A stretch of DNA of 27,806 bases from a virus: positions 1 through 27,806 of IMG/VR virus record IMGVR_UViG_3300007735_000566, one strand, 5' to 3'. Position numbers and translations under genes: made by a program. The notes beneath the pieces were generated by a model, which saw only the letters and a list, made by a program, of their open reading frames with translations, did no database searches and was not told where the DNA came from. Below, in pieces: positions 6,296 through 23,084 of this stretch (position 1 is the first letter of the stretch; every line of letters begins with the position of its first letter).

Positions 6296-6303
6296 TTATT
6301 TAG
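6296..6303 (-). promoter_or_regulatory. CTAAATAA late-promoter-like element before the 194-aa gene
   Basis: Exact CTAAATAA on the minus strand, immediately downstream of the capsid terminator and four bases before the next start codon. It belongs to a family of identical octamers seen before several other genes here and resembles the TATAAATA late -10 of T4-like phages and CTAAATA elements described for cyanophages. No shared -35 is visible. Promoter function is inferred from recurrence and placement. Confidence 0.55.
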
Positions 6304-6307
6304 TGTC

Positions 6308-6337
6308 AAAAGGAAAGGGCCCCTAAGAGCCCTTTCC
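6308..6337 (-). terminator. Rho-independent terminator after the major capsid gene
   Basis: On the minus strand a perfect 9-bp stem, GGAAAGGGC and GCCCTTTCC, encloses an 8-base loop and is followed directly by TTTT (6311-6308). It lies about 25 bases past the capsid stop codon and just before a CTAAATAA promoter-like element. That gives a textbook terminator-promoter pair that would uncouple abundant capsid transcription from the downstream tail genes. There is no T-tract on the other strand, so it works for minus-strand transcripts only. Confidence 0.85.
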
Positions 6338-6361
6338 CGACACACTCTAATCCTGTTAGAA

Positions 6362-7531
6362 TTAAGGTGTTACATCGCCTGCGCCAAAGTTTACGCGGCT
6401 TACCGCTACGCTTGGGCGTGGTGTGGTTACCAAGCTACCAGTGTTGGTGATGTTGTTCAACATCGCAACACCTGCTGGGTTACGCACAATCAGTGTACCT
6501 TCAAGCAAGAACTGGTCTAGCGAAGCGTCAGCGTTTGAGAACACTTCGTTGTTAGGACCCAGATCACGCAAGCTACCCCACTGAACGACATCTTCGTTTA
6601 AGAAGTAGATGCTGTTGCTTACACCAGCCTGATCCATGATCCAAGAATCAAAGATTTCGTAGGTGTAGTTGAAGTCACCTTCATAAGTCTGGATTGTGTC
6701 GCCACGCTCCACATTACGACGGTTGATAGAAGTGTTAGAACTACCAATGTTATCGCTGATGATTGTTCTTAGCGAAGTAGGAGCAACCATAGTGCGAATC
6801 TTGGCGTTGTAACGCTGTTCAGCAACAGTTACCAGCTGCTTGTACAGCACAGGGCTGAACACCTGGTTGGTAAATGTACCGTTGTAGTAGTAAGAACCGT
6901 TAGCATAAATGCGTAGGGCGTTACTGATCTGTGTAGCACTGTCAGTGTCTTCGTTGTTGAAGAATGTGTCCAAACCACTCAGAGAACCTGAAGTTGGGTT
7001 GAAGCTCATTGTGCCTGCGAACGAAGCCAATGAACCCATACGACGACCTGTCTGGCCTGCTGGTAGACCAGCGGCTTGGCCTGACTGACCAGCGTACTTG
7101 GTACCAATCTGGTCGTTACGAACTAACTGTAGTTCCACATCGAACATGAGTTCGATCAACTGCTTGACTTCTTGGTAAGCCTGTGGGTCACCACCAGCCT
7201 GCATAACAGCGCGAGCTGTACCGCTGGAAGCAATAACAGTTGAGAAGATCTGAGTATAGTTACCCAGGTTGTAACGCTGATTGCTTTCAGCGTTTGCAGT
7301 AGAAACTGCGGCACCTTCTAATTGTGCCTGAACGGCTGGAGCACGGTAAATGTCATCAGTCCACAGTGGTAGTGTGCTGTTGACTTTGCGCTTCTTGCTC
7401 ATAGCCATGTTTAGAACGGGGGTATCGTCCTTAACGCGGTTGGACACATCTAGGTCCAAGTCCTTGACAACGATGTCACTGCCATAAGCTGTTGTACCGT
7501 TGCCAATCTGACTCGTAGTAATTTCCGCCAT
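6362..7531 (-). CDS. Major capsid protein (SU10-like, DUF5309-type HK97 fold)
   Basis: 389-residue major capsid protein that builds the icosahedral shell. The N-terminal third carries the signature pattern of the SU10/DUF5309 capsid family: DDTPVLNMAMSKKRKVNS, then a W-x-D-D acidic turn (WTDDIYRAP), then NYTQIFSTVIASSGTARA. The C-terminal part has SLRTIISDNIGSS, EGDFNYTYEIFDSWIM and a late EGTLIVRNPAGVAML strand, consistent with an HK97-like A-domain. Length fits the family (about 300-400). Start: ATG at 7531 behind AAAGGA. It lies directly downstream of the scaffold gene and is followed by a strong terminator, as expected for the most abundant virion protein. The family call is from pattern memory; the major-capsid role is well supported by gene order. 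Confidence 0.9.
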   Translation of the reverse strand: MAEITTSQIGNGTTAYGSDIVVKDLDLDVSNRVKDDTPVLNMAMSKKRKVNSTLPLWTDDIYRAPAVQAQLEGAAVSTANAESNQRYNLGNYTQIFSTVIASSGTARAVMQAGGDPQAYQEVKQLIELMFDVELQLVRNDQIGTKYAGQSGQAAGLPAGQTGRRMGSLASFAGTMSFNPTSGSLSGLDTFFNNEDTDSATQISNALRIYANGSYYYNGTFTNQVFSPVLYKQLVTVAEQRYNAKIRTMVAPTSLRTIISDNIGSSNTSINRRNVERGDTIQTYEGDFNYTYEIFDSWIMDQAGVSNSIYFLNEDVVQWGSLRDLGPNNEVFSNADASLDQFLLEGTLIVRNPAGVAMLNNITNTGSLVTTPRPSVAVSRVNFGAGDVTP

Positions 7532-7555
7532 TTTAGTATTCCTTTAATAAATGGT

Positions 7556-8731
7556 TTATCTTGCACCTCTACTTGAGCGAATACTCTGTAGTCGCTGAAC
7601 AAGTAGATTGTCTGCGGCTTTTTTATCACCGCTCTTGGCTTGTTCACGAAGTTTGCTTAGGTCATCCCCGCCTGAGCCTCTAGTTGCTGTTGCTCCTTTG
7701 CGTTGAGTCAATGCAGCCATGCTTGAGCCGGCGCTTTGGGTACGAGGCTTGTCCCTATATCTTAGACCATCTCTAACTAGACTTAACAAAGCTTCATCAG
7801 AACTGATCAAATCAATATTGGGCACTCCTGGAACGATTTCACTTTTTGCACTGGGCCAGATTTTGCTCATCTTATCACGGATCTCGTTGTAGACATATTC
7901 ATTCCTCAACTCTTTATCCTGAAAGTTCTTGCGATTAGTCTCAAGAACCTGCGCCACCTGCTGGCTCCGCACTTGACGGAACTGGTCTACCGCAGGCTTC
8001 AACTTGTTGATAGCCTTTTGCTGGTGACGGATGTATTGCTCATTCTGTGCCATGCTGGCCTGGATTCGCGCAATCTGCGCTGGATCCTGGGTCTTTGCCA
8101 ACTGCTGTTGAAAGGTTGCTTGATAACCTTGAGTTTTCAAGATTTCATCATAGGCCTTTTGCAACTTGGGTTGTACAGTGAATTCCATTGCAAGAGCTAG
8201 CCCCTCCTGCCTTGCTCGAACATCCTTCAAATACTCATCAAATTCTGCTCGTTCAATTTTGAGTTGGCGTGCTTCTTCGTGTATTGCACTTCCTTGTCCT
8301 AGAATCGCTGCGGCTTTCTTAGCATCAATGACGACTTCCTTGCCATTACGCATGAACTTGAATTTGGCCTGAGGATTAGTCTCAGCAAATTCAATAAAGT
8401 CAATCAAATCTTCTGCTGTAGAATTTGTACTATCAGAGCTTACAGGTTCGTCAAAACTCTGGGCTTCTGCTTCCAAATTGTCGCTGGCTGATTCTGCTTC
8501 TGCGGAATCTGCAACTTCGGCTTCAACATTATTACTGTTGGGTGCCACAGGGCTTGAATCTGCTGCCGCATCTTCCGGACCTGTTGCAGTCTGTTCAGTA
8601 GTTCTAATCTGATTACGCAGCGTTTGTTCACGCATTGCGGTCATTTTAGCAGCTATGGTATCTAAACTGGGAACTGCGCTTTGATTAGCGTCCGCCGCTG
8701 TTGGGTTAGGACTAATCGTTGTCGTTTGCAT
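7556..8731 (-). CDS. Capsid scaffolding protein
   Basis: 391-residue hydrophilic protein between portal and capsid genes, the standard scaffold position. The N-terminal ~110 residues are low-complexity and acidic (Ser/Ala/Glu/Asp), followed by a helical, coiled-coil-prone middle (about 140-280, e.g. EARQLKIERAEFDEYLKDV and many Gln/Lys/Glu) and a basic C-terminus ending RLQSIRSSRGAR. An acidic disordered head, a long coiled coil and a basic tail that contacts capsid protein is the usual scaffold plan. It would act inside the procapsid and be expelled on packaging. Start: ATG at 8731 with AAAAAGGA upstream. A CTAAATAA element lies 42 bases before it, overlapping the stop of the previous gene. 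Confidence 0.8.
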   Translation of the reverse strand: MQTTTISPNPTAADANQSAVPSLDTIAAKMTAMREQTLRNQIRTTEQTATGPEDAAADSSPVAPNSNNVEAEVADSAEAESASDNLEAEAQSFDEPVSSDSTNSTAEDLIDFIEFAETNPQAKFKFMRNGKEVVIDAKKAAAILGQGSAIHEEARQLKIERAEFDEYLKDVRARQEGLALAMEFTVQPKLQKAYDEILKTQGYQATFQQQLAKTQDPAQIARIQASMAQNEQYIRHQQKAINKLKPAVDQFRQVRSQQVAQVLETNRKNFQDKELRNEYVYNEIRDKMSKIWPSAKSEIVPGVPNIDLISSDEALLSLVRDGLRYRDKPRTQSAGSSMAALTQRKGATATRGSGGDDLSKLREQAKSGDKKAADNLLVQRLQSIRSSRGAR

Positions 8732-8773
8732 ATTTTTTCCTTTTTGTGAGGGCCGTTCAGGTTACCTCTGGAT

Positions 8774-8781
8774 TTATTTAG
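8774..8781 (-). promoter_or_regulatory. CTAAATAA late-promoter-like element before the scaffold gene
   Basis: Exact CTAAATAA on the coding strand, 42 bases before the scaffold start and overlapping the TAA stop of the 118-aa gene. The space between contains an AAAAAGGA ribosome-binding site, so geometry fits a late promoter for scaffold and capsid. The wider match is GACTAAATAA, as at two other sites. Confidence 0.55.
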
Positions 8782-9134
8782 TCTGGACGAACCCCTGGGT
8801 CAGGTGTTTGTTCAGCTCTAATAACTTGATTTTTCTTGTAAACAGCACTTTTCAGTGTGTTAACAAAACCATCTATGCCTGCCAGCTGATTTGCTAGGGC
8901 AATGCGTTCTGCATTGGCTTCTGCTGTGTGAGTTCTAATATTGGCCATAGCATCATTTACTTCAAATTTAAAATGATGTATGAACATGGCCAAGTCACGA
9001 TGCTTGATCAATGACTCAGCTATGCTACCATATTGTTTGATAGCATCACGCTGTGCAGGTGTTAACTTTTTTACATTGCTGGTGTCAATGGTCAGCCTAC
9101 GATTGTAGGCATCCACTGCTTCTTCTGATATCAT
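8778..9134 (-). CDS. Small helical protein between portal and scaffold, unknown
   Basis: 118-residue protein (MISEEAVDAYNRRL) predicted by eye to be largely alpha-helical. A conserved-looking central block reads LTPAQRDAIKQYGSIAESLIKHRDLAMFI (split here only for description), with a polar helical remainder and a short proline-containing end. There is no catalytic motif, signal peptide or membrane segment. Start: ATG at 9134 with AAAGGA seven bases upstream. It lies between an inserted endonuclease-like ORF and the scaffold gene, so it is probably a virion-assembly accessory or minor head protein (inference from place only). Its stop codon is part of a CTAAATAA element. Confidence 0.65.
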   Translation of the reverse strand: MISEEAVDAYNRRLTIDTSNVKKLTPAQRDAIKQYGSIAESLIKHRDLAMFIHHFKFEVNDAMANIRTHTAEANAERIALANQLAGIDGFVNTLKSAVYKKNQVIRAEQTPDPGVRPD

Positions 9135-9144
9135 ATGCTTTCCT

Positions 9145-9474
9145 TTACCAATGTTTTACAGCACGGACTTCTTTTATTCCTTGTGCTATTTTTGCTTTGC
9201 TTTCTTCTGTATGCGATTGGAAGAAACCTCTACCATTTTTTCTTGCTTCTAATGTATTTTCTTCAGTTGTAAGTTTACGACAATTGTCAGGATGATATGC
9301 CCCGCAATCATTGTAGCGAGCCATAACCAAACATCCTTTTTTACTGCCTCGCTTTTCTAAATCATCGCCCCACCAAGCAATCCATTCATTTAAACTAAAT
9401 TGCCATTCAATACCTCGGCGTTTAGCACGAACTTTTTGATTATGATATTTTCTGCAAATCTCTGTTCTAGTCAT
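9145..9474 (-). CDS. Homing-endonuclease-like mobile ORF (copy 2), after the portal gene
   Basis: 109-residue basic protein clearly related to the ORF at 12057-12383. Shared blocks are AKRR.I...F...EWI.WWGDD...RG..KG.LVMAR, then D.G.YHPDN. The second block resembles the R..D..G.Y.P.N signature of phage HNH/AP2-type homing endonucleases. The C-terminus (HTEESKAKIAQGIKEVRA) resembles a NUMOD3-type DNA-binding helix found in intron- and inter-gene-encoded endonucleases. It is inserted between portal and the 118-aa gene with 20 and 10 bases of flank. Only a weak AGAAAGA ribosome-binding site precedes ATG 9474. DNA cleavage is inferred from family resemblance; a full His-Asn-His triad cannot be proven by eye. 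Confidence 0.6.
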   Translation of the reverse strand: MTRTEICRKYHNQKVRAKRRGIEWQFSLNEWIAWWGDDLEKRGSKKGCLVMARYNDCGAYHPDNCRKLTTEENTLEARKNGRGFFQSHTEESKAKIAQGIKEVRAVKHW

Positions 9475-9494
9475 TTCATTTCTTTCTAAATTGA

Positions 9495-11798
9495 TCAGTG
9501 GCCATAATCCTGTGGACGACCAGTTTCAGTGCTGGCAGCTAGACTCATAAAGTTTAGCTGACTGTCTGCATCTTCGCCAGCAACTTCAGCAGCAATCTGC
9601 TGAGCCTTGACATCATTGAGTTTGGCTGTACTGATGTTCTTCTGATCTTCTGGGCTTGGTCCTTTGTTCTTGCGTGTTTCTTCAGCTTGCTGAATCATCT
9701 TGATCACTTCTTGATCGCTAGGCAAGTAAGCTGTGGTATCTTTGATACCCAACACATACAATGTGTCTTCAAAAGGCTTTTTGACCTTTTTAAATATTTC
9801 AGGTGTCAGTGTTCCAGCAGCAACCATGCCCTGCACAGTTTCATAAAGTTGAGCCTGTGTCTTTTGAATCAGCTGCTGGCGACCCAAAGCATTTTCTTGA
9901 CTCATCATGCCCAAAGCCAATTCCAGTTGAATCTGCTTGCGATCGCAAAAGTTCATGTCATCAAAGGCCTGATAGTCTAAGAATACGGGCTGTCGATCTG
10001 GGTGACTGCTTTGTGCCAGTTTACGCACACCATAATCATCACCATACTGGATCAAAGTACGCCATACCAACCATAGTGCTTCACGGAGACCTTCAGCAGC
10101 ATTGCGTACTGTGTTGTCTTGAATGATCTGATTGGGGCTTAGAGCCATTTGTAGTTTAACACCTGAATTACCTGGTGCCATAATTTCTGGATTGAACACA
10201 TCCTGTGGTGTGGTCATACCAACCATGGCCATAGTATCCTGTTGAATACGATTCATAGCCACTTCTAAGAACTGTAGATTACCACTGGGAGGTGGCATTT
10301 GATAGATGTCTTTTTGTGGATCAAACTTTGAATCCAAGATAAAGATAGCAGCTTCGCCATCCTGCATCATTTCAAAGTCCACACGGTCTGGTTTGACACC
10401 AATACGCGGTGTAGCAGTCAACAAGCCCAGCTGAATTTCAGCTCTAGCAGCTGATGTCTGATATTCCTGCATGGGAATCACTGATTCGCCAATGCTCATG
10501 CCATAGAAGTTGCCAGGCAAGGGCTTGGGACACATGTTGGCCACTGGAATAAATTCAACTTCTTTGGCACTGATGATATAACTGCCTGAGTAAATCAATT
10601 CAATGAGTTCTAATTCACCATCGCCATCAATGTCATACTTGTTCCATACTGTGACAATACTTACTTGACGACTGTCTGGATCTGCTGATGCAGCACTTGA
10701 CACTGGAATACCCATAACAGGCACTGAGTCTCTGGCATGAATAGCTAGGTTGTTTAGCACTGAACCTGCTTGGTAAGCGCCGTTCATGTTGTATTCAGCA
10801 TGTTGTTCAAAGGCTTCTAGGTTATCACTGATACCTGGATACAGTTCCACAGCTTCCTGAATGGTCATTGGATCATAAAAACCGCAGAAGGGTTGATCAC
10901 GCATTTCTGGCACAGTGGGATCACAGATCCAGTAGTGCTGTGCAATGGGATGGAACTTGATGTTGACATTGTAGCCAGTCAACTTGTAGCGAGCCTTGTA
11001 GATTGTGTTTCTGCGAATAGCTGTGCGTAGGATTTCTTCCTGACTTTCTGTTTGACTGCGATATAAATCTTCGCTTTGTGTCAACGGATCTGTTTGATCT
11101 GTTTCTTCTGGCAAGCTTTCAAGGCCCTGCATCACAATGTCAACTTGACTTTGCATCAGTTCCTGATTGCTTTCGCCTAATAGTTGCTGGACTTCGGCCA
11201 TAACAGCCTGCATGTCCACAGTATCTCTGCGACGGCTTTGGCGCATGGCAGTGAGTCCTGCATCTGCTGCCTGCTGTTCAAAGGCCTTTAGCTGATCTGC
11301 GGTACCCTGTGTTTCTACATAGCGCACAATTGCTTCACGAATGGGTTTGATCATCATCATGCCATTTTTGTGCATGGCACTGTCCATAACCCAACGCTCT
11401 AAAATAAAGTGTGGATCATTCATTTGATTCACAACCTTACTGACCATGTTGGTTGCTTGGCGAGCAGCAGTTTCATCTGCTTCTGAGTCTGCTACAAATT
11501 CAAAGTTGATTTCACCATTGGGCAACAGGCCTTTGGTAATAACTGCTGTGGCATAATCCACCACTGGTTTTACACTAGGGTGAATGTAATCAATACCATT
11601 TACAGGTGCAGTTGAATCTGTAACTGCTAGACAGAGATAGTGATAGTCAGTGGCTCTGTTAACAGCGTTTTTGGTGCCCAGATAACGCAGATAAGATGCC
11701 ATTTTGACATCCATCTGATTCTTCATACGCACAAAAGTGGCGTTGATTTTGCGGTTCTGATTTATATCCTGTACGGGCGTATGTTTAATATCCAGCAT
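9495..11798 (-). CDS. Portal protein
   Basis: 767-residue protein forming the dodecameric portal ring through which DNA is packaged and ejected. Features typical of large podovirus (P22/SU10-like) portals: an N-terminal helical region, a long middle domain with beta blocks (DGDGELELIELIYSGSYIISAKEVEFIPV, in pieces), the clip/stem region around FYGMSIGESVIPMQEYQTSAARAEI, and a helical, Gln-rich C-terminal barrel region. Length fits the P22-like portals (about 700-770) rather than the shorter siphovirus ones. It lies downstream of the terminase with only two small ORFs between. Start: ATG at 11798 with AAAGGA upstream and a CTAAATAA element 25 bases before. The C-terminus ends GRPQDYGH, just before the inserted endonuclease-like ORF. 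Confidence 0.88.
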   Translation of the reverse strand: MLDIKHTPVQDINQNRKINATFVRMKNQMDVKMASYLRYLGTKNAVNRATDYHYLCLAVTDSTAPVNGIDYIHPSVKPVVDYATAVITKGLLPNGEINFEFVADSEADETAARQATNMVSKVVNQMNDPHFILERWVMDSAMHKNGMMMIKPIREAIVRYVETQGTADQLKAFEQQAADAGLTAMRQSRRRDTVDMQAVMAEVQQLLGESNQELMQSQVDIVMQGLESLPEETDQTDPLTQSEDLYRSQTESQEEILRTAIRRNTIYKARYKLTGYNVNIKFHPIAQHYWICDPTVPEMRDQPFCGFYDPMTIQEAVELYPGISDNLEAFEQHAEYNMNGAYQAGSVLNNLAIHARDSVPVMGIPVSSAASADPDSRQVSIVTVWNKYDIDGDGELELIELIYSGSYIISAKEVEFIPVANMCPKPLPGNFYGMSIGESVIPMQEYQTSAARAEIQLGLLTATPRIGVKPDRVDFEMMQDGEAAIFILDSKFDPQKDIYQMPPPSGNLQFLEVAMNRIQQDTMAMVGMTTPQDVFNPEIMAPGNSGVKLQMALSPNQIIQDNTVRNAAEGLREALWLVWRTLIQYGDDYGVRKLAQSSHPDRQPVFLDYQAFDDMNFCDRKQIQLELALGMMSQENALGRQQLIQKTQAQLYETVQGMVAAGTLTPEIFKKVKKPFEDTLYVLGIKDTTAYLPSDQEVIKMIQQAEETRKNKGPSPEDQKNISTAKLNDVKAQQIAAEVAGEDADSQLNFMSLAASTETGRPQDYGH

Positions 11799-11823
11799 CG
11801 GCGAGGTTTCCTTTGGTCATGGA

Positions 11824-11831
11824 TTATTTAG
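11824..11831 (-). promoter_or_regulatory. CTAAATAA late-promoter-like element before the portal gene
   Basis: Exact CTAAATAA within CCAGACTAAATAATCC on the coding strand, 25 bases upstream of the portal start and overlapping the stop codon of the 81-aa gene. The portal ribosome-binding site AAAGGA lies between. Same motif and similar spacing as at 16468 and 23077. Confidence 0.55.
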
Positions 11832-12073
11832 TCTGGTAAGATTATGTGAGGACGAGTAAGTTCCTCAGCCAAATCGCAAACCTGGCACTTGTGCTCAGCT
11901 GCATCTTCTGCTGTCATTGGAATTGTGGTAGCTGGCAAGTTGATTTCTTTGCACAACAGCTGATAAGTTTGGCTGTGCAGCTCGCACATGATTACTGGTG
12001 CTTTTTCAGCTACCAAAACCAAGTATAAACTGGGTGCTGGTGTGGTAGTTTCTGCGTTATCCTTGTGGGTCAT
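11828..12073 (-). CDS. Small putative zinc-binding protein
   Basis: 81-residue protein (MTHKDNAETTT) with Cys/His pairs placed as in small zinc ribbons: C-E-L-H near residue 30, a further Cys about 11 residues on, and H-K-C-Q-V-C near residues 61-66. The C-terminus is EELTRPHIILPD. A structural zinc site is inferred; the function is unknown. Its ATG lies inside the last codons of the endonuclease-like ORF upstream (T-ATG-AC within the YDPQG codons), so the two genes overlap by 17 bases in different frames. The same peptide ends the terminase, which suggests this start originally overlapped the terminase gene. It sits between terminase and portal, a usual place for small packaging or head accessory proteins. 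Confidence 0.65.
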   Translation of the reverse strand: MTHKDNAETTTPAPSLYLVLVAEKAPVIMCELHSQTYQLLCKEINLPATTIPMTAEDAAEHKCQVCDLAEELTRPHIILPD

Positions 12074-12383
12074 ATTGTTTTCTCTTTTTCCAATTAGCTT
12101 TTAGACTCTCGCTTCGTTTAAGTCTAGATTCAGCAGACAAAGGCCTACCTTCAACTCCTGCAATCACATTTAGTGAACAATTGCATTTAAAAACATTGTC
12201 AGGATGATAAGGGCCCGTGTCGCCTTTGCGGGCCATTACAAGTTGGCCTTTGCTTTTACCGCGATTAACAATGTCATCGCCCCACCAATGGATCCATTCT
12301 TCGTAAGTGAATTCGAATTTAATATTTCGCCTTTTTGCATTGCGGCGCTGGACTGCATAATTTGAGTAATAGGGTTTTTTCAT
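12057..12383 (-). CDS. Homing-endonuclease-like mobile ORF (copy 1), after the terminase gene
   Basis: 108-residue basic protein, paralogue of the ORF at 9145-9474 (shared EWI.WWGDD, KG.LVMAR, D.G.YHPDN). It has an HNH/AP2-like D-G-x-Y-x-P-x-N block and a NUMOD3-like C-terminal helix (LSAESRLKRSESLKANWKKRK). It inserts between terminase and the 81-aa gene. Unusually, its last residues are YDPQG, identical to the terminase C-terminus but encoded by different codons. There is no Shine-Dalgarno before ATG 12383; instead TATAAT lies at 12390-12395, six bases upstream, so the gene might be transcribed on its own and leaderless (speculative). Cleavage activity is inferred from resemblance only. Confidence 0.62.
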   Translation of the reverse strand: MKKPYYSNYAVQRRNAKRRNIKFEFTYEEWIHWWGDDIVNRGKSKGQLVMARKGDTGPYHPDNVFKCNCSLNVIAGVEGRPLSAESRLKRSESLKANWKKRKQYDPQG

Positions 12384-12424
12384 GATATTATTATAGCATT
12401 AACCTTGAGGATCGTATGTTCTCT
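12057..12424 (-). repeat. Synonymously recoded duplicate of the terminase 3' end flanking the inserted ORF
   Basis: The terminase ends TACGATCCTCAAGGTTAA (12416-12399) and the inserted ORF ends TATGACCCACAAGGATAA (12074-12057). Both encode YDPQG-stop; every difference is at a third codon position, and similar AAGAGA/ACA bases precede both. The downstream copy contains the ATG of the 81-aa gene; in the terminase copy that ATG is lost (ACG). The two copies are 342 bases apart, the size of the inserted unit. Confidence 0.7.
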
Positions 12425-14015
12425 TGATTGCCGCTTTGTTGGCGTCATCTCGAGGACGATAATATTTGTTACGAGCTGCTGCCATTCTTTGTTGAGGGGT
12501 TCTATTGTCCCAGGGCTCTGCAATACCATTTAGACACCCTAACAATGCGTAACGAGCAGAGTCAATGGTGTCATCTGGGTCACTAAATCTGCCTTGTTGA
12601 TCCACATAGTAATTTTGTGCATCACTTAAAAATTGTGTGCAATTTTCATTTACCATTAATGAACCAGTTTCTAGCATTTGACGCATCTGGTTAATGCCAT
12701 ATGCTTTGTGATTTGTAACGCGGCCTTCTGAATCAGGTGGGTTCATAATGGGCTTGTGATATACATTGAGTTCATAACTTTCAAACAATTCTCTAACACT
12801 ATTTGCACTCATAGTATATCTACCAGGGGTACTGGCATCAGGTGGTAACACAATAGGGGTGCCAAATACCTCAGGACGAAGTAGATGGTTAACATACTGC
12901 ATAGGTACGGCTTCTTCAATACCTTGCACCACAATCTGTTTGTGTAGATAAGCAGTTCGTTCATAAGGATCCCAGTACATCAAAGTAATAACAGTTTGGT
13001 CATTGACTAGACCCAAATCAAGAGCAATGATTCTATGTATGTTAGGCATTTGATCAAAACGCATCTGACTGCTTGAGTAAGTTGGCCAGTCACGAATTTG
13101 AAACACAGCGCCTTTGCCCATCACAGGCTTACCAGCAATACGAGCCTCTCGTTCATGTGGCAAGTAGTCTCGTTCTAGTTGTCGGCGTGTTTCTGCTAAT
13201 AGAAATGGTTGACCCCAAGGATCATACTCAGGCACATCCGCCCACGATACACGAATGTATTCATATCCTGATTCCTTGTTCCAAAACTTGCTTACCAGTC
13301 CGTTAAGACCTTTGAGTGGTGTAAACGAACACAACACTTTGCCTTGTGTGGTAGCAGTTCTAGTAACAATTTCTGAAAAGAAGTCGTCGGGTGGTTGTTC
13401 GTCAAACACAGCAAGGTTCAATTTGAAACCTTGCAATTGGCGCACTTCCTGTGTGTAGTTGGCAAATAGGAGATAACTTTTAGCACCTGACACATGCCGT
13501 ATTTCTACACCAATACAGTTGGCGCCATCATTACGCATGGTTTCAATCACAATGCAATCCCGAGGTATTGCACCAGTGCCAATATGTTCTACAAGTTTGA
13601 CATCTTGTGTGCCCAACAATTCATTTTGTAGAACCAGTGCTACCTGGCTCCAACCTTCACCAGCTACCATGCAGGTTATAGGCCCTGAAAATCTATAACC
13701 ATCCCACCACTCAGGATATTGGCCAGTGAGGTGCATGGCTGTTTCATAACAGGTACTTGTGGTTTTACCTACTCGGTTGGCAGCTAGGATACCACGGCGA
13801 TCACTGGCACCTGTTCTAAAGAAATCACGCTGATGTTCAAAAGGCCTAAAATATTTTAAGTTATTGAACTGCATGTCATCAGCAGTGGCAATCACAAGAT
13901 CCTGCAAGTGATTGCGAAGATTGCTAGGCCACCGCTGATAAGTTTCTGGTGCTACTCCATTTGAATCAAGAGCATGACGCAGGGCACGAGCCATTAAGAC
14001 ATCTGTACCTAGCAT
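12399..14015 (-). CDS. terL: Terminase large subunit (ATPase-nuclease DNA packaging motor)
   Basis: 538-residue packaging motor. The ATPase half has a Walker A-like GILAANRVGKTT at residues 75-86, Walker B plus catalytic acid LAVFDEQ at 201-207, and a coupling motif SFTPLKG at 230-236. The nuclease half has an RNase H-like acidic set: D333 in IIALDLG, D393 in PPDAS and D482/D485 in DDTIDSAR. Length and motif spacing are normal for tailed-phage TerL. Start: ATG at 14015 with GAGG upstream, one base after the stop of the preceding gene; a second in-frame ATG at residue 8 is possible. The last codons (YDPQG) are duplicated synonymously at the end of the endonuclease-like ORF immediately downstream. 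Confidence 0.93.
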   Translation of the reverse strand: MLGTDVLMARALRHALDSNGVAPETYQRWPSNLRNHLQDLVIATADDMQFNNLKYFRPFEHQRDFFRTGASDRRGILAANRVGKTTSTCYETAMHLTGQYPEWWDGYRFSGPITCMVAGEGWSQVALVLQNELLGTQDVKLVEHIGTGAIPRDCIVIETMRNDGANCIGVEIRHVSGAKSYLLFANYTQEVRQLQGFKLNLAVFDEQPPDDFFSEIVTRTATTQGKVLCSFTPLKGLNGLVSKFWNKESGYEYIRVSWADVPEYDPWGQPFLLAETRRQLERDYLPHEREARIAGKPVMGKGAVFQIRDWPTYSSSQMRFDQMPNIHRIIALDLGLVNDQTVITLMYWDPYERTAYLHKQIVVQGIEEAVPMQYVNHLLRPEVFGTPIVLPPDASTPGRYTMSANSVRELFESYELNVYHKPIMNPPDSEGRVTNHKAYGINQMRQMLETGSLMVNENCTQFLSDAQNYYVDQQGRFSDPDDTIDSARYALLGCLNGIAEPWDNRTPQQRMAAARNKYYRPRDDANKAAIKRTYDPQG

Positions 14016-14016
14016 G

Positions 14017-14491: not shown

Positions 14492-14493
14492 GA

Positions 14494-15324: not shown

Positions 15325-15344
15325 TTCATTTCCTTGTCTATGCT

Positions 15345-15361
15345 GTGTGAATCAATCACAC
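15345..15361. other. Short inverted repeat in the gap upstream of the 276-aa gene
   Basis: A perfect 6-bp dyad GTGTGA/TCACAC with a 5-base spacer lies 21 bases upstream of the 276-aa gene start, next to an A/T-rich GATAAATTAA on the coding strand. There is no T-tract, so a terminator is unlikely. It could be an operator or an mRNA hairpin. This is the only sizeable gap in the segment (15325-15390). Confidence 0.35.
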
Positions 15362-15390
15362 TTTAATTTATCTCTGCTGTCCGGCAGTGA

Positions 15391-15531
15391 TTAGTATGCG
15401 CTGGTGGCACCCAATGCACCACGCTGTCTTGAGGTCTGACGAACAGGCTTGGGACGGCGCGGCTTGGCAGCAGCCTGAGGCTTCTTAGGCCTACTGGCTG
15501 CTGTTTTTGCTCGAGGCTTCTGGTGTTTCAC
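15391..15531 (-). CDS. Very basic 46-aa protein with GTGA start-stop overlap
   Basis: A short frame starting at GTG 15531, whose TG overlaps the TGA stop of the preceding gene (GTGA junction). The protein begins MKHQKPRAKTAASRPKKP and has 14 Lys/Arg in 46 residues with many Pro and Ala, then a less charged end, RGALGATSAY. The composition resembles small nucleic-acid-binding or DNA-condensing phage proteins, but no family is recognised. The reading frame fills the interval between two genes almost exactly and shares their tight packing, which is the main evidence that it is real. It has no ribosome-binding site of its own at normal distance, so translation is probably coupled to the upstream gene. 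Confidence 0.6.
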   Translation of the reverse strand: MKHQKPRAKTAASRPKKPQAAAKPRRPKPVRQTSRQRGALGATSAY

Positions 15532-16277: not shown

Positions 16278-16278
16278 T

Positions 16279-16440
16279 TTATTTTCCTTTTGCGCGAGTC
16301 TTAGATGCTTTCTTAGCAGCCGCTGCTCGCTTGGTTGCATAGGCAATAGCCACGGCTTGTTTTGCAGGTCGTCCTGCTTTTACTTCTGCTGCAACATTCT
16401 TAGAGAATGCTTTCTTGCTGGTTGATTTGATCAAAGGCAT
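16279..16440 (-). CDS. 53-aa basic protein of the MPLIKS-type phage/bacterial family (DUF6496-like)
   Basis: A short gene starting at ATG 16440: MPLIKSTSKKAFSKNVAAEV, then KAGRPAKQAVAIAYATKRA, ending in a Lys/Ala/Arg tail. The N-terminal pattern P-L-(I/V)-K-S-x-S-K-K-A-x-S-x-N followed by E.(K)AG.P.KQAVAIA is a recognisable small family (DUF6496-like) common in phages and some bacteria; its function is unknown. AAAGGA lies about 12 bases before the start, and the stop TAA is one base before the next ATG. A CTAAATAA element 27 bases upstream overlaps the stop of the TerS-like gene. The complete family pattern in such a short frame makes this a real gene. Confidence 0.82.
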   Translation of the reverse strand: MPLIKSTSKKAFSKNVAAEVKAGRPAKQAVAIAYATKRAAAAKKASKTRAKGK

Positions 16441-16467
16441 GATTATGATAATTCCTTTTTCATGTGA

Positions 16468-16475
16468 TTATTTAG
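16468..16475 (-). promoter_or_regulatory. CTAAATAA late-promoter-like element before the small-gene cluster
   Basis: Exact CTAAATAA on the coding strand in GAGACTAAATAATCAC, 27 bases before the 53-aa gene and overlapping the TAA stop of the TerS-like gene. A ribosome-binding site lies between motif and start, so the geometry suits a promoter for the small-gene cluster. Confidence 0.55.
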
Positions 16476-16836
16476 TCTCAGGCTCAACACCCACCAGTTT
16501 GGCTAGGGCTGCTGCAAATGCAGCTTGTTTGGCTTCAATGGCATCTTTGCTGTCTGTGACTTCAATTTTGGCCAGGCTGCTCATGACCTTGTTTAGGATT
16601 AGGTTGTGATACTTGAGTGTGAGTTGAGTATCATTGTTGTTTCTGGCCTGTATAAAATCTTCTACTAGAATTGCTTCATAATCTCTACCACCAGTTTGAG
16701 TTTCTAAGGCTTCTAATAGTCCTTTGACAGTGACAGCATCACGGCTGTTCTTTGGGCGTCCAGCACCAGGTCTAGCACCACCGCGTGAGGGTGCTTTGTT
16801 TTTGTATCTTGGTGATTTTTTATCTTGGTTGTCCAT
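16468..16836 (-). CDS. Terminase small subunit-like DNA-binding protein
   Basis: 122-residue basic protein. The N-terminus is disordered (MDNQDKKSPRYKNKAPS), followed by the characteristic RGGARPGAGRPKNSRDAVTV stretch found at the start of many phage small-terminase and helix-turn-helix proteins. The rest is helical (VKGLLEALETQTGGRDYEAIL, FIQARNNNDTQLTLKYHNLIL, Ala-rich last helix). The small subunit recognises the packaging site and stimulates TerL. The gene sits about 2.5 kb upstream of terL rather than adjacent, so the role is probable rather than certain. ATG 16836 has no ribosome-binding site and lies five bases after a CTAAATAA element. It is divergent from the plus-strand acetyltransferase-like gene. 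Confidence 0.55.
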   Translation of the reverse strand: MDNQDKKSPRYKNKAPSRGGARPGAGRPKNSRDAVTVKGLLEALETQTGGRDYEAILVEDFIQARNNNDTQLTLKYHNLILNKVMSSLAKIEVTDSKDAIEAKQAAFAAALAKLVGVEPETK

Positions 16837-16841
16837 ATGGT

Positions 16842-16849
16842 TTATTTAG
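16842..16849 (-). promoter_or_regulatory. CTAAATAA late-promoter-like element before the TerS-like gene
   Basis: Exact CTAAATAA on the minus strand, five bases before the TerS-like ATG, in the only divergent intergenic region of the window. As at 6296, the short distance would give a leaderless message if the element is a -10 box. Confidence 0.55.
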
Positions 16850-16868
16850 CAGCCCTGGTTGCGGGGCA

Positions 16869-16876
16869 TTAAATAG
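16869..16876 (+). promoter_or_regulatory. TTAAATAG promoter-like element for the plus-strand gene
   Basis: TTAAATAG on the plus strand, 23 bases before the chosen start of the plus-strand gene; it differs from CTAAATAA at its first and last bases. It faces away from the exact motif at 16842-16849, so the intergenic gap may hold a divergent pair. Weaker match, hence low confidence. Confidence 0.35.
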
Positions 16877-16899
16877 CGCACACAATGAAAGGAACTGCA

Positions 16900-17400
16900 A
16901 TGACAGAATACACATGGAGTTTGGCCAACGGTGATGATGTGGGCGAGATTGTTGCTATGGCGGAGCAGCATTTTCAACAAGAAATTGATCGTATCTTTAC
17001 ACCAGAACCGCCTGTGATGACACGCAATCTTATATTTGCTGTCACAAACCAATTTTTCTTACCTGGCACAGAATTGGTAGCTGTGGCTAGAGCCAATGCA
17101 GATCGACAACTTCTAGCATATACTTGGGCCAAAAGTGGAGACCGTGCTGTGTGGAGTGATGATCCCATGGTCAGTGTGCGTATGGCACATGTGGATCTCA
17201 ATCAAAGCCCAAGACAGCGAGTACGCTTGGTCACAGACATGCTGGATCATTGGGAACGCTTTGCTAGATTCTGCAATCATAGAATCATTTGCAGCACTAC
17301 CATGCGACATGACCAAACAGCATTCTTGCGACTGCATGAACGCCATGGTTACAGTGTGCGTGGATCATATGCCTATAAACTGTTGGATCCTGCGGAGTGA
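16900..17400 (+). CDS. GNAT-like acetyltransferase, the only plus-strand gene
   Basis: 166-residue protein starting MTEYTWSLANGDD. ATG 16900 is preferred over 16885 because AAAGGA lies exactly six bases before it. The end FLRLHERHGYSVRGSYAYKLL matches the last helix-strand unit of GNAT N-acetyltransferases (a..l.er.GF...g). A basic helix SPRQRVRLVTDMLDHWERFA may be the acyl-CoA-binding P-loop region, but the canonical Q/R-x-x-G-x-G/A is not clean, so this is GNAT-like rather than proven. Substrate unknown. It is transcribed against all other genes, divergent from the TerS-like gene and convergent with the Dps gene, which suggests independent acquisition or separate regulation (inference). Confidence 0.5.
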   Translation: MTEYTWSLANGDDVGEIVAMAEQHFQQEIDRIFTPEPPVMTRNLIFAVTNQFFLPGTELVAVARANADRQLLAYTWAKSGDRAVWSDDPMVSVRMAHVDLNQSPRQRVRLVTDMLDHWERFARFCNHRIICSTTMRHDQTAFLRLHERHGYSVRGSYAYKLLDPAE

Positions 17401-17487
17401 ACACGACACAAGCTCGCCTGCCAATTCGTTGATGCCCAGGTTAGAAAACGGCAAAATCTCCTGGTTCTTGATAGTGTTCTGGGCCGT

Positions 17488-17919
17488 TTAACTAAGGGTG
17501 CTTTTGATCATCCAAATTTGTTTTTTCAGTGCAAGGATTTGATCCTGTGCATAGTTGGCAATTTCAGGATAGTCTTCGTCTTCTGCCACACGAATTAGTT
17601 CACGCAGTGTTTCCGTCAAGTGTTCAAGGTCTTGACCAACCATGTCAATCAAGAAATCTGCATCGCCTTCAAGTTTGGTAGCATCAACCTGACTGTTCAG
17701 CAACACTTCGCTAAGATCGCAAGGCATGTATTCATCCATGGTACGCAGAAGTTCGCCAATGGTGTCAATTTGTTCCTGGCGGTCTTCATAGATGCCTTTC
17801 AGCAACTTGTGGTCACTGACAAAGTTTCTGCCTACAATGTTTACATGTGCTTGATGGCTGCGATAGTAAGCAACAAAGTTGTCGTTAAACAGTTGGGTTA
17901 GTTGTTCTTGTGTGGTCAT
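17488..17919 (-). CDS. dps: Dps-like ferritin with intact ferroxidase residues
   Basis: 143-residue member of the Dps/ferritin-like family, which forms 12-subunit shells that oxidise and store iron and protect DNA from peroxide. The first two helices carry the Dps signature F-x-A-Y-Y-x-x-H-x-x-H-x-N-x-x-G-x-N-F. The four bacterial ferroxidase ligands are in exact register: H25, H37 (12 on), D52 (15 on) and E56 (4 on), as for His51/His63/Asp78/Glu82 of E. coli Dps. The usual Trp after the first His is Val here. No long basic DNA-binding N-terminal tail is present. Length is slightly below typical Dps (about 150-170). Start: ATG 17919 behind AAGG, in line with the virion genes, so it is probably expressed late. 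Confidence 0.82.
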   Translation of the reverse strand: MTTQEQLTQLFNDNFVAYYRSHQAHVNIVGRNFVSDHKLLKGIYEDRQEQIDTIGELLRTMDEYMPCDLSEVLLNSQVDATKLEGDADFLIDMVGQDLEHLTETLRELIRVAEDEDYPEIANYAQDQILALKKQIWMIKSTLS

Positions 17920-17927
17920 AGCTATAC

Positions 17928-18803: not shown

Positions 18804-18807
18804 AGTG

Positions 18808-21800
18808 TTAATTCCTATTGAAAGTACTTAGTGGAGGGCGATTGGCAGCTCTTTCGCTGTAAGGTGTGCCATATTCCCAAGTTCTGCGTTCGCTGCTCCA
18901 CTGTGGCACTGGATAGTGTCTGTAGGCATCAACCACAGCGCCTGGATTACGACCATCTGGATTGTATCTTGCAATATAAGCGGCTCTTGCGTTGTAGATA
19001 TTGTCATACTGTGTTTGTAGGCGTGCCTTTTCCTGACTCCAAGCTGCGTCAAATGTAGCGCGAGTTGTTAGATCAGGTCTTGCTGCTCTAAATGCACCTC
19101 TAGCTGCATTGAGGTCACCTTCAAACTGGTTGCGTGTCATTAAGGTCAATGCACTGTACAAGGGCTGACGAGTAATGTCCACATTGGCCTGACGGTTGGC
19201 TCTTTGTTCAGCATCACTGACAGCGCCAGCGCCGGCATTCTGTTTCAGAGTCAACGGATCAATTTGTCTAGCAAGAGCAATTTGATAGTTTAGAACATCT
19301 TTCTGACGCTGTGTTAGATCTAGGGCTCTTACTCTAGTGCTGAGATCATCCACACTGGTAAAGTTACCTGCCACTAGGTCACGAATAATGTTGCCAACTT
19401 CTCTGGCTGTGCTGCCCTGACCACTCATTAGGCCAGCAATTTCAGGATTTCTTAGAATACCGTCTGGACCATTGACCTGATCTCTACGGATTCTAGCAAT
19501 GGCTGAACCACTGCTGGCCTGAGGTCCAATGGTTTCACTGTCGTATTTCACAAATTCAGTGGCTTCTGCTCTTTGTGCGGCTGCGCCTGCTTCCAATTGA
19601 GGACCTGTAGGTCTTCTTGCTGGTTGTGCAGCAGGTGCTGCTCCTGGCGCCACTGGCTGTGGTGCAGCGGCTGCGGGCGCTGCTGGTGCTGCTGGTGCTG
19701 GTGCACCAGGTGCTACAGGTGCAGGAGGTTGTGCTGCTGGTGCTACGGCTGCTGGTGCAGCAGGTTGTGCTGCTGGTGCGGCAGGTGCGGCAGGTGCAGC
19801 GGGTTGTGCTGCTGGTGCTGGAGCAGGTGCTTCACCACCAACCTGAGGCACTTGAATGCCAACTTCGCTAGGCTGAATAACAGGCAAGCCATTTGCTGCC
19901 AACTGCTGGTTGTAAGGACGCAGAATCTGCATCTGTTCTTCAACACCTTTGCCTTGCAGTCTAATGTTGAGATCTTGCAGAGCACGAGTTCGCATATCGC
20001 CCAAGGTACCTGTTGAAGCCTGTGGACGAAAACCTGTCATGCCTCTACGGCCTTGATCAGTTTGAATATAGCTTTGACCAGTGCGCTTGTCAGTGACCAC
20101 ACGACCCACTTCACCAGTGCGGTCATTTACATAAGTGCCACCCACAATGTCTAGTTCTCTGCGACCACCACCAAAGCCAACCAATTCAGTTTCGCTCATG
20201 GCAGTGCCATCAGCTTTGATACCACTGATAGGCAAGCCTCTGGCATTGGTTTCTACTAGAACTGGACGGCCTTGTTCATCTTGTGTGCTTTGCCAAGTGT
20301 TGCCATAACCACCCCAACGGTTGATTTCTTCTCGGGCAGCATCACCTAGGCCAAGATACTGTAGAATACCTGCTCTAAATGCGCTGGCTTCTCTGGTGCG
20401 GCCGGGTCTGTTGAGTGCTTCAGTAATGGGTTTGAGATCACCAGTGGCCACAGCGTTTTGGAATCGCAGCTGACCATTGGTAAGTGCCACTTCATTCAGC
20501 ACTTGTTCTCCAGCTCTGCGTCTAATGTCTGGGCTAAAAGCTGGATTGTTGTAAATTTGAAACAGTGCAGTAGGATTGCCCTGTGCTTGTGTAAATGCAT
20601 CAAACTGCTGTGTGCTGGCCATGGTGCCTTCACCAGCAGCAGGAGCAGCAGCAGGAGCAGCAGCAGGAGCAGCAGCAGGAGCAGCAGCAGGAGCAGCAGC
20701 TGGTTGTGCTGGTGGAAGAAATTCTGGACCACCACCCACGGAGGCTACTCGTACACTGGGATATGCAACTGTTTGTGCTTCTTCACCTTGTCCTGGACCA
20801 GTGTACTGACTGGCAGCACTGGCAGCAGTAAAGCCGCGTGTGGTTGGACCACCCAAGCGACCTTCAATGATTTGTCTAGTGCGATCAAAGCCACCATTGG
20901 CTCTAGCAGCAGCAGGGCTGATTGTGCCATCACGAAGATAATCTCTTAGACCTCTAGCACCTAAAAAGTGTGCAGCAGCAAGATTACCAGGTGTGGCTTC
21001 AATACCATATTGGCGTAATGCACGGCTGTTGATTTGTGTTAGAACCTGATTGGCTCTAGTTTGTTCTTCTAATGTTAGACTTTCAATAGGGCGTCCTGCA
21101 AAGCTGGGATCTCTGCGTTGAATTTCTGTGTAGGCAGGTGCAGTGATGCCATAAGCACCATAGGCTGTGCTGGCTCTGCGACCCTGTGCATCAGGTTGAT
21201 AGTGATAACCAATGTTGGGATTTCTACCGCTTTCACCCAAACGCACCTGTGCATCATATTCTGTTTCGCCTGCCAATCTCTGTGCTGGTCTTGCTGCTGG
21301 TCTTGCAGCAGGTGCAACAGGTGCAGCTCCTGGCGCCACTGGTCTTGGTTGTGGTCTTGCACCGCCAGCTTGTGCTACCTGCACTGGGCGACCTTGTTCA
21401 TCTAAGCCCAAGGCAGTGCGTTCACGCTGAACAAAATCAGCTACCATGCTGGGCTGTGCTGGAGCAGGTGCGCCAGCTTGTGCAGCAGCTTGTTCTCTAC
21501 GCAGTCTGTCCAAGGTAGCATCTACTGAGCTCATGTCAGTGGGTGCCACAGGTTGTGGTTGTGCTGCCTGAGGTGGAGTTGTGCGTTCTGTGGTTACTAC
21601 CTGTGTGCCATCAGCACGAGTTTCTACTGTTTCGCTGCTGACAACATCTCTGGGTCTTGGCGGCTTTGGTATTGCATCTAATACGGAACTAGGTAGTCCT
21701 GTTGATACACCTACCTGGCCAGGACCTGATACTGGCTGATACAGTTCACCAGTTTCTGGATTAACAGCCGTTCCAGGCGCTACTGGTCTTGGCGGCAGTG

Positions 21801-22059
21801 GTATTGCATCTAATACAGAACTGGGTAGTCCTGTTGAAACAGGATATGTTATGGCACCGCTGGGCTGCACACCAGCTGGAATGTTGAACATACCAGTGCC
21901 AGCAGCATCAGAAACAGGCAGTTGTGGTTGAACAATGCCTTGTGCTAGAGCAAGAATACGCTCTTGTTCTTCTCTGCGTCTGCGTTCTTCTTCTTCCTGA
22001 CGCAGGCGTTCTTCTTCCATTGGGTCTTGGTATGTGCTACCGTAGGGTGTGAATGCCAT
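18808..22059 (-). CDS. Giant internal virion protein with lytic transglycosylase domain
   Basis: 1083-residue protein. It opens with a charged Glu/Arg coiled-coil (about 14-35), then Pro-rich disordered linkers in which the 14-mer VSTGLPSSVLDAIP occurs twice (74-87, 118-131). A lysozyme/lytic-transglycosylase-like domain lies at about 265-405: candidate catalytic Glu in LGESGRN (E276), the core AYGAYGIT and AAHFLGARG, as in SLT/goose-lysozyme folds. After Ala/Pro tandem linkers come a central domain (about 490-730), another Ala/Pro linker, and a long helical C-terminal domain. Role inferred: like T7 gp16, ejected with DNA and locally cutting peptidoglycan. Start: ATG 22059 with AAGGA. Its linker DNA carries perfect tandem repeats. 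Confidence 0.8.
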   Translation of the reverse strand: MAFTPYGSTYQDPMEEERLRQEEEERRRREEQERILALAQGIVQPQLPVSDAAGTGMFNIPAGVQPSGAITYPVSTGLPSSVLDAIPLPPRPVAPGTAVNPETGELYQPVSGPGQVGVSTGLPSSVLDAIPKPPRPRDVVSSETVETRADGTQVVTTERTTPPQAAQPQPVAPTDMSSVDATLDRLRREQAAAQAGAPAPAQPSMVADFVQRERTALGLDEQGRPVQVAQAGGARPQPRPVAPGAAPVAPAARPAARPAQRLAGETEYDAQVRLGESGRNPNIGYHYQPDAQGRRASTAYGAYGITAPAYTEIQRRDPSFAGRPIESLTLEEQTRANQVLTQINSRALRQYGIEATPGNLAAAHFLGARGLRDYLRDGTISPAAARANGGFDRTRQIIEGRLGGPTTRGFTAASAASQYTGPGQGEEAQTVAYPSVRVASVGGGPEFLPPAQPAAAPAAAPAAAPAAAPAAAPAAGEGTMASTQQFDAFTQAQGNPTALFQIYNNPAFSPDIRRRAGEQVLNEVALTNGQLRFQNAVATGDLKPITEALNRPGRTREASAFRAGILQYLGLGDAAREEINRWGGYGNTWQSTQDEQGRPVLVETNARGLPISGIKADGTAMSETELVGFGGGRRELDIVGGTYVNDRTGEVGRVVTDKRTGQSYIQTDQGRRGMTGFRPQASTGTLGDMRTRALQDLNIRLQGKGVEEQMQILRPYNQQLAANGLPVIQPSEVGIQVPQVGGEAPAPAPAAQPAAPAAPAAPAAQPAAPAAVAPAAQPPAPVAPGAPAPAAPAAPAAAAPQPVAPGAAPAAQPARRPTGPQLEAGAAAQRAEATEFVKYDSETIGPQASSGSAIARIRRDQVNGPDGILRNPEIAGLMSGQGSTAREVGNIIRDLVAGNFTSVDDLSTRVRALDLTQRQKDVLNYQIALARQIDPLTLKQNAGAGAVSDAEQRANRQANVDITRQPLYSALTLMTRNQFEGDLNAARGAFRAARPDLTTRATFDAAWSQEKARLQTQYDNIYNARAAYIARYNPDGRNPGAVVDAYRHYPVPQWSSERRTWEYGTPYSERAANRPPLSTFNRN
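20641..20700 (-). repeat. Five perfect 12-bp tandem repeats in an Ala/Pro linker
   Basis: The 12-base unit aggagcagcagc (plus-strand reading) is repeated five times without any mismatch and extends partially on both sides. It encodes a PAAA-type linker in the giant internal virion protein. Perfect identity, including third positions, means recent slippage expansion; the copy number is likely to vary between close relatives. Confidence 0.9.
21653..21840 (-). repeat. Duplicated 56-bp segment in the giant virion protein gene
   Basis: Positions 21653-21708 and 21785-21840 match at 51 of 56 bases, 132 bases apart, both encoding VSTGLPSSVLDAIP followed by Pro-rich residues. It is an in-frame internal duplication in the disordered N-terminal region of the transglycosylase protein. 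Confidence 0.85.
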
Positions 22060-22062
22060 TGT

Positions 22063-23052
22063 TTATTCCTTATCAAGATCGGGAAGCTTGCTGTAATCAA
22101 CCTGCAGAATTCCCTGCGAGTTTCGGCTAACAGCATGAGCATAGCGTGGATCACGCAGAATATCCTGCGCCATGGTTCCGCGTCTTGGTGTTTTATCCCA
22201 AACATAGTTGAAGCTGTAAACAGGCACGCCATCTCGAGTGCCAATACGCTCAATGTTTTCTTTGACTCTGCGGTCACTGAGCAACATGCTGCCCAATACT
22301 GCGCCACCAAGTCCGCTACCAAAGTTGAGACCCATGTTGTAGCTGCTTTGACTGCCTGTGGTTGTTCCACCTTGTGTGCCACGGAAGTCTGGGCTGTAGC
22401 TGGATGATGGAACACCATAGATCACGCCAGCATATTTGTTGAAATAATCTTGTGGTATAATCGAAGCTGAAACAGCATTGCCAGCAGCACCAAGAGCTTG
22501 TCCAATACCAGCCTGACCCAAATTGGCCAACTGCTGTGCTGCGGCAGCTCGCTGTGCTTGAACACCTTGTTGTACCTGTGCAGCAGTTTGCATCTGTGCT
22601 GCTTGTGTTTGTCCTGCTAGGGCTCGTTCTGCAAGAGCCTGTCTTGCTGAACCAATGTTGCCAAGGCCACCAAACTGTGCCTGTTGTTGTGCCACATTCT
22701 GTGCATACTGGCTTTGTGCTGGTGCCAGTGCTGCCATAACCTGGTTGGCTTCATAGTTGGGATCAAACAGGCTTTGTAGGCCTGTGATGCCTGTGCGTAA
22801 GGCACTTTCGCCTGTGCCACCCAGGGCTTCTTGTGCTTGTAAGGCTGTTCTAGCCTGATTCTGTGCAGCATTTAATACTCCAGGCGCATTGACATTGTAT
22901 AAACCTGTAGCACCTGTAACAGCTTCTCTATAGGTTGGCGCCACAGTTCCTGTAAAGAACTCTGTCTGCGCCTTGATCATGTCTTTTTGTTCTTGCGTTA
23001 GGCTTGGAGTGTTGATTGTGGTTGAACTACCACCGCCTTTTCCCATGCTCAT
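22063..23052 (-). CDS. Ala/Gln-rich internal virion-like protein ending in an S74-type self-cleaving chaperone
   Basis: 329-residue protein. Residues 1-255 are Ala/Gln/Gly-rich helices (EQKDMIKAQTEFFTG, AQNVAQQQAQFGGLG), resembling gp14-like internal virion proteins. A Gly-rich hinge follows, then from S259 a short peptidase-S74-like intramolecular chaperone: L-S-D-R-R-V-K-E-N-I with S259, D260 and K264 at the known Ser-Asp/Lys catalytic spacing, then FNYVWD, RGTMAQDILRDPRYAH and a closing LQVDYSKL. In endosialidases and fibres this domain helps trimerisation and cuts itself off before the Ser; release of a ~71-residue fragment is predicted here. Start: ATG 23052 with AAGGA nine bases before; an ATAAATAA element precedes it. 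Confidence 0.78.
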   Translation of the reverse strand: MSMGKGGGSSTTINTPSLTQEQKDMIKAQTEFFTGTVAPTYREAVTGATGLYNVNAPGVLNAAQNQARTALQAQEALGGTGESALRTGITGLQSLFDPNYEANQVMAALAPAQSQYAQNVAQQQAQFGGLGNIGSARQALAERALAGQTQAAQMQTAAQVQQGVQAQRAAAAQQLANLGQAGIGQALGAAGNAVSASIIPQDYFNKYAGVIYGVPSSSYSPDFRGTQGGTTTGSQSSYNMGLNFGSGLGGAVLGSMLLSDRRVKENIERIGTRDGVPVYSFNYVWDKTPRRGTMAQDILRDPRYAHAVSRNSQGILQVDYSKLPDLDKE

Positions 23053-23076
23053 AATTGGTTATCCTTGTAATATGGT

Positions 23077-23084
23077 TTATTTAT
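23077..23084 (-). promoter_or_regulatory. ATAAATAA late-promoter-like element before the internal virion operon
   Basis: ATAAATAA on the coding strand (context CCATAAATAAACC), 24 bases before the S74-ended protein, with an AAGGA ribosome-binding site between. It differs from the other five motifs only at the first base and is the closest match to the T4 late consensus TATAAATA (CATAAATA, 7 of 8). It lies in a 42-base gap with no other feature. Confidence 0.55.

Follow-up and report, generated by a model that had tools for sequence, protein, structure and literature searches.

The window analysed here is the whole 27,806-base stretch of an IMG/VR virus record, and its coding strand is the minus strand. 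Profile matches identify a podovirus-type set of head and tail genes (capsid, portal, terminase, ejection-like and ferritin/Dps-like), all on the minus strand. The major capsid protein (6362–7531; phrog_1328) lies between a scaffold-like gene (7556–8731), so named from its position and composition, and the virion-module gene c11 (5707–6291; 194 aa), which starts at the ATG at 6291 and not at the GTG at 6345. The portal (9495–11798; phrog_1216) and the terminase large subunit (12399–14015; phrog_2 and Pfam Terminase_6N) are accompanied by two related HNH-like genes in the head module, one at 9145–9474, separating the portal from c10, and one at 12057–12383, after the terminase; both match phrog_16521. 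The TerS-like gene c7 (16468–16836; 122 aa) has no family match and was assigned by position. The Dps/ferritin-like protein (17488–17919; phrog_3636 and Pfam Ferritin) is present in 20/20 genomes of the family, where this universal gene is placed among the virion genes; cyanophage S-EIV1 and Cronobacter phage GAP52 encode distant relatives of it. The internal virion or DNA-ejection-like protein (22063–23052) matches phrog_6121 and phrog_4287, and the protein encoded at 23095–24441, between the 2OG-oxygenase and ejection-like genes, contains long DAGDAG/DDAADDA repeats. The sole conserved reverse-strand gene of the family is c15 (16885–17400, plus strand), for which GNAT-like is our own reading, no Pfam match having been obtained, and whose true start is probably the ATG near 16900.

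No close relative of the window was found in the named phage collection, the nearest being MW202484.1 with a capsid identity of 63%, and near relatives were matched at 534 places in IMG/VR. Capsid relatives in genome contigs yielded no host. Outside motif-bearing contigs, the 2OG-oxygenase matches in the named collection are to cyanophages only. The family set comprised the window and 19 long relatives (20 genomes), oriented on the capsid gene, with genes called by a simple in-house caller. The ends of six contigs overlap; in G001, G008, G011, G013 and G014 (33.8–39.3 kb) an intact gene spans the join, and these five were therefore treated as closed genomes. Closure of the sixth, G012, is less certain, with a 55-base overlap that falls in a tail-fibre gene. 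The relatives thus consist of five closed genomes and 14 further long contigs.

A sequence-only reading of the window had described a recurring late-promoter-like element of the T4/cyanophage type in a podovirus-like genome. The element is there, and it is conserved across the family. Five copies of CTAAATAA and one of ATAAATAA occur at the positions first given for them. All six are on the minus strand, the coding one, and each either lies in an intergenic gap or overlaps the stop codon upstream. The copy at 6296–6303 precedes c11, its first base being 12 nt from the ATG, and directly upstream of it an intrinsic terminator (6308–6337, minus strand; a GGAAAGGGC hairpin followed by TTTT) ends the capsid-gene transcript. 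Three copies overlap stop codons, as had been noted: 8774–8781, over the stop of 8778–9134 and upstream of the scaffold-like gene; 11824–11831, over the stop of 11828–12073 and upstream of the portal gene; and 16468–16475, over the stop of the TerS-like gene and ahead of c17, a small basic gene. The copy at 16842–16849 serves the TerS-like gene itself, with the ATG 13 nt from its first base, and ATAAATAA at 23077–23084 is upstream of the internal-virion/ejection-like gene. The transcripts of both c11 and the TerS-like gene are predicted to be leaderless. Dinucleotide shuffles of the window average 0.58 copies of CTAAATAA and never contain five. The list of six sites was correct but incomplete: a plus-strand TTAAATA at 16869–16875, before the divergent GNAT-like gene, was missed and is a likely seventh. 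A further CTAAATA at 24536–24542 (minus strand) was rejected as a promoter; it lies within the 2OG-oxygenase gene and is conserved because it encodes the conserved peptide LNSLCAI. The gap at 15325–15527 before c1 lacks the promoter found there in 13/20 genomes, the nearest sequence being ATAAATT, with one mismatch.

When all words in the 20 genomes were ranked, with no motif preselected, the hexamer most enriched in intergenic sequence was TAAATA, with 264 intergenic, 80 coding and 28 antisense intergenic occurrences. The top heptamers were CTAAATA (122 intergenic or stop-overlapping, 17 coding and three antisense) and ATAAATA (104, five and six, respectively), with Shine–Dalgarno words ranking lower. 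Intergenic sequence makes up only ∼10.6% of these genomes, so that an equal density of the motif inside genes, which had been named as the result that would overturn the proposal, is clearly not what is found. The k-mer p-values themselves are inflated because sites in related genomes share descent and the counts are not independent. GTAAATA and TTAAATA are concentrated in gaps to a far lower degree than the C and A forms, and the more distant MW202484 shows no enrichment, with four forward and five reverse sites. Family-wide there are 72 CTAAATAA sites, of which 27 lie over a stop codon, 38 are free in gaps and seven are inside genes; stop-codon context was on these counts rejected as the cause of the motif.

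The logo of the aligned family sites has R at −13, C or A at −12 and then TAAATA. The search pattern behind this logo has C/A at −12 built in, and the G and T forms were counted separately. CTAAATAA is only one form of the element: family-wide it reads R[CA]TAAATA, and at some sites the first base may also be T or G. The −35 region is unconserved, in agreement with the original observation that no −35 is shared. In T4-type phages, late promoters are read by gp55 together with gp33 and the clamp gp45. The podovirus element shares two features with this class of promoter: it is an 8-bp TATAAATA-like box without a −35, and it immediately precedes virion (late) genes, oriented with them. It is closest in form to the late promoter of Aeh1, a/gCTAAATA, with a/gC at −13/−12 (PMC2988020); it is also close to that of cyanophage S-PM2, NATAAATA (PMC2984593). 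A second class of promoter is present in the same genomes. Strict TTGACA-16/18-TATAAT promoters in gaps number 20 forward and one reverse and stand mostly before small non-virion genes, which suggests that separate σ70 promoters serve the small early genes. [CA]TAAATA occurs within 60 nt of five of the 20 strict σ70 promoters and in two cases overlaps the −10 element as TATAATAAATA; paired early and late promoters have been reported for S-PM2 and RB49 genes (PMC2984593).

Across the family the sites are found repeatedly at the same boundaries between genes, including all six named in the sequence-only reading. The motif is upstream of the portal in 19/20 genomes, of the TerS-like gene in 17/20, of c11 and of the internal-virion gene in 17/19 each and of c17 in 10/13; the two exceptions at c11, G007 and G010, appear to reflect starts that were miscalled, so that the motif falls just within the called gene. 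Some modules lack it in some genomes, c1 having a site in 13/20 and the scaffold gene in 9/20. In a wider sample of 76 capsid-bearing contigs, 68 have the motif no more than 260 nt beyond the end of the capsid gene, compared with 7% of random windows. For the reverse-strand GNAT-like gene, 15/17 genomes carry NTAAATA within 60 nt and on the strand of that gene, compared with 0.6% of random reverse-strand windows.

The spacing to the start codon falls into distinct groups. At the TerS-like gene, c11 and c17 the ATG is 11–14 nt, mostly 12 nt, from the first base of the motif, and at the remaining boundaries the start codon is ∼25–35 or 50–80 nt away. Among the 76 contigs, the first ATG after the post-capsid motif is at offset 12 in 54 and at offset 13 in 11. 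Since T4 late promoters cover −13 to −6 (PMC2988020), offset 12 corresponds to +1; the ATG of these three genes is thus at the predicted +1 and their mRNAs would be leaderless. This placement fits initiation about 6 nt after the box. The usual order at c11 in most genomes is capsid stop codon, GC hairpin with T-run, motif and ATG. For all sites together, a terminator precedes the motif in 30/247 cases compared with 7/144 control starts, a modest excess, and the association is clear at c11 only.

Motif, strand, place, spacing, conservation and the existence of two promoter classes can be read directly from the genomes, and a genuine promoter class of the T4-late type is well supported by them. 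We consider it highly probable that the element is a late promoter of T4/Aeh1 type in an uncultured family of 34–39 kb podoviruses, read by core polymerase with a gp55-class factor. Three further points are inferences: transcription starts from the motif, it does so late in infection, and the factor involved resembles gp55. In the mechanism that we propose, the core of the host RNA polymerase, carrying a gp55-class specificity factor, would recognise R[CA]TAAATA (−13 to −6) as a −10-only promoter. Separate late transcripts would start at the internal-virion, TerS-like, small-gene, portal, scaffold, post-capsid and tail-fibre modules. For the post-capsid gene, the element would act from just past the terminator; for the TerS-like gene, c11 and c17, a start codon at the predicted +1 would give leaderless mRNA. 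The early genes would be transcribed from ordinary σ70 promoters.

The use of such elements had been taken to imply a phage-encoded sigma elsewhere in the genome, and this part of the proposal was not borne out: the five closed relatives and the 14 long contigs lack homologues of gp55, of sigma regions 2 and 4 and of gp33. The gp55 profile phrog_234 had no match in the window, the 19 relatives or MW202484 (T4 gp55 control, E = 2.5e-70), and neither did a second gp55 profile, phrog_12791, which did match T4, C48C1 and four of the large contigs as positive controls; a first-look candidate for phrog_12791 in G006 was not accepted. No sigma region 2 or 4 domain exceeded the cut-off in the five closed relatives and 14 further long contigs; a sigma-4 match in G016 (E = 0.007, 11.6 bits) fell under it and was not accepted. 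Searches with the gp33 profile (phrog_254) found none in the family and were positive for the T4 and C48C1 controls, but gp33 is a weak criterion since the gp55-encoding contigs G062, G026 and G066 are also without a match. A search for single-subunit RNA polymerase (PF00940) had no positive control and is given no weight. The scan of 140 accessory proteins revealed no sigma among the families listed, 25 to a listing, which were nucleases, primase (PrimPol), DUF5906, glycosyltransferases and similar; a sliding clamp (gp45) was likewise absent from the listed matches. Two of the universal small proteins were considered as hidden sigma factors, with no support from their models: the AlphaFold2 model of c13 has three helices and no PDB match at E ≤ 0.001, and the c1 model, of low confidence and mixed fold, bears no apparent resemblance to a sigma. 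Among the accessory clusters tested, iterative profiles included, no non-virion gene is common to all genomes. The closed genomes G011 and G014 have no recognisable replication gene; in the closed 39.3-kb G001, the replication-like genes are limited to PrimPol and a DUF5906/primase-like gene. A recognisable gp55 or other sigma is absent from the closed relative genomes. With no gp55, gp33 or sigma-2/sigma-4 homologue in the family, the factor by which a T4-type promoter is defined and read is missing. Because searches failed to find it, we do not assign the family to the T4 late system, although a T4-like late promoter function is still the best reading of the element.

The same element is found in much larger phages. 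CTAAATAATACTATG, a 15-mer form, occurs in at least 120 IMG/VR stretches; 13 of the 80 examined carry core genes of the podovirus family, and seven of 48 other records bearing the 15-mer encode gp55, among them four of the five that exceed 100 kb. The contigs that share the motif and the ATG-at-12 geometry and encode gp55 are 122–178 kb in length. ATG at offset 12 was counted at 45 sites in G062, 26 in G039, 30 in G026 and 15 in G066, compared with means of 2–5 at other offsets, the excess in G066 being less strong; one site per contig is biased because the selecting 15-mer includes the ATG at 12, and the remaining sites are unbiased. No such excess was seen in T4 (75–124 kb) or in part of the Kyanoviridae phage C48C1. 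The late-promoter-like sites of G062, G039 and G026, often with the ATG at +1 and predicted leaderless, differ in this from T4 and are possibly unreported. With the gp55-encoding G066 the podovirus family has two genes in common, one Dps-like and the other the early gene c20; the 2OG-oxygenase and the small gene c18 are found in other motif-bearing contigs as well.

As to the source of the factor, the family's own protein comes nearest to an even chance while staying short of it, a co-infecting gp55-encoding phage and a host factor are each assigned a low probability, and the remainder falls to other sources. Our leading candidate, with a little less than half of the weight, is a phage protein too divergent for profiles or of a new fold, which would be made from σ70 promoters and would redirect the host polymerase to R[CA]TAAATA. 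Phage-encoded transcription factors are common among phages, most early proteins of the family lack annotation and the two promoter classes are present; however, the promoter is invariant family-wide and no tested early gene is, and the universal proteins appear virion-like, the models of c13 and c1 giving no indication of a sigma.

A less likely but not negligible reading is that the podoviruses encode particles and no late sigma, so that the gp55 and partners of a co-infecting T4-type phage would switch on their late genes. The absence of a sigma homologue from the five closed genomes, the lack of a recognisable replication gene in G011 and G014 and the lack of a universal non-virion gene among those tested, even by iterative profiles, are all in line with such dependence, as are the motif and ATG-at-12 geometry of the 122–178 kb gp55-encoding contigs and the genes held in common with G066 (Dps-like and c20) and with other motif-bearing contigs (2OG-oxygenase and c18). 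On the other hand, a full-looking virion gene set, the family's own σ70 early genes and its abundance (534 IMG/VR places) fit an autonomous phage; the gene sharing shows only a common gene pool, and one site in each of the large contigs is biased by the 15-mer used to choose them, since this has the ATG at 12. An extension of this idea, in which the whole abundant family would be transcriptionally dependent on T4-type phages as a bacterial counterpart of the virophages, is improbable. Direct reading of the motif by a host sigma is likewise unlikely: it would account for the failure to find a phage factor, but phages that encode gp55 use a sigma of their own to read this motif, which has no −35 and is a misfit to TATAAT, and the podoviruses themselves use canonical TTGACA-17-TATAAT for their early genes. 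Very improbable indeed is a role as a translation or RNA-processing signal or as an artefact of stop-codon context; several sites do contain the upstream stop codon and TAA words are AU-rich, but the distance from motif to start varies (about 12, 25–35 and 50–80 nt), the c11 sites come after terminators, most family sites have no stop overlap, the divergent GNAT-like gene has its own copy and Shine–Dalgarno words are also present, ranked lower.

T4 late transcription is held to be a hallmark of large T4-type myoviruses that have their own gp55, gp33 and clamp. On the preferred reading, that of a T4/Aeh1-type late promoter, a small podovirus family would use the T4-type late box genome-wide, with predicted leaderless starts and without a recognisable gp55. 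This would imply a new class of phage specificity factor, a host factor that reads T4-type late promoters or dependence on the late sigma of another phage, and a promoter reporter together with a host would allow any of the three to be tested. Since the complete genomes of the family lack a recognisable T4-type factor, how the late genes are switched on becomes a testable question; if the factor does come from a co-infecting phage, one phage family would live off the late sigma of another.

Three known systems invite comparison. The virophages of giant viruses would be a parallel only if a helper phage supplies the factor. Virophages such as Sputnik and mavirus have their own capsid genes and use the late promoters of a bigger virus, whereas the members of the podovirus family are bacterial tailed phages. 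The phiEco32/7-11 group resembles the family in having its own promoter class beside σ70 promoters; that promoter is not known to be T4-like. Phages phiEco32 and 7-11 are both described as encoding a sigma-like protein (PMC8948821), an identifiable factor of a kind that was not found in the podovirus family. The T4-type phages differ in that the present family consists of 34–39 kb podoviruses without gp55 or gp33 homologues, and in T4 itself the stretch at 75–124 kb does not show the ATG that is often found at the predicted +1 in the podoviruses. The likeness to the late promoters of T4 (TATAAATA), Aeh1 and S-PM2 (NATAAATA) resides in the 8-bp box at −13 to −6, the lack of a −35 and the position upstream of virion genes, and with Aeh1 it extends to the same R followed by C/A at −13/−12 (PMC2988020, PMC2984593).
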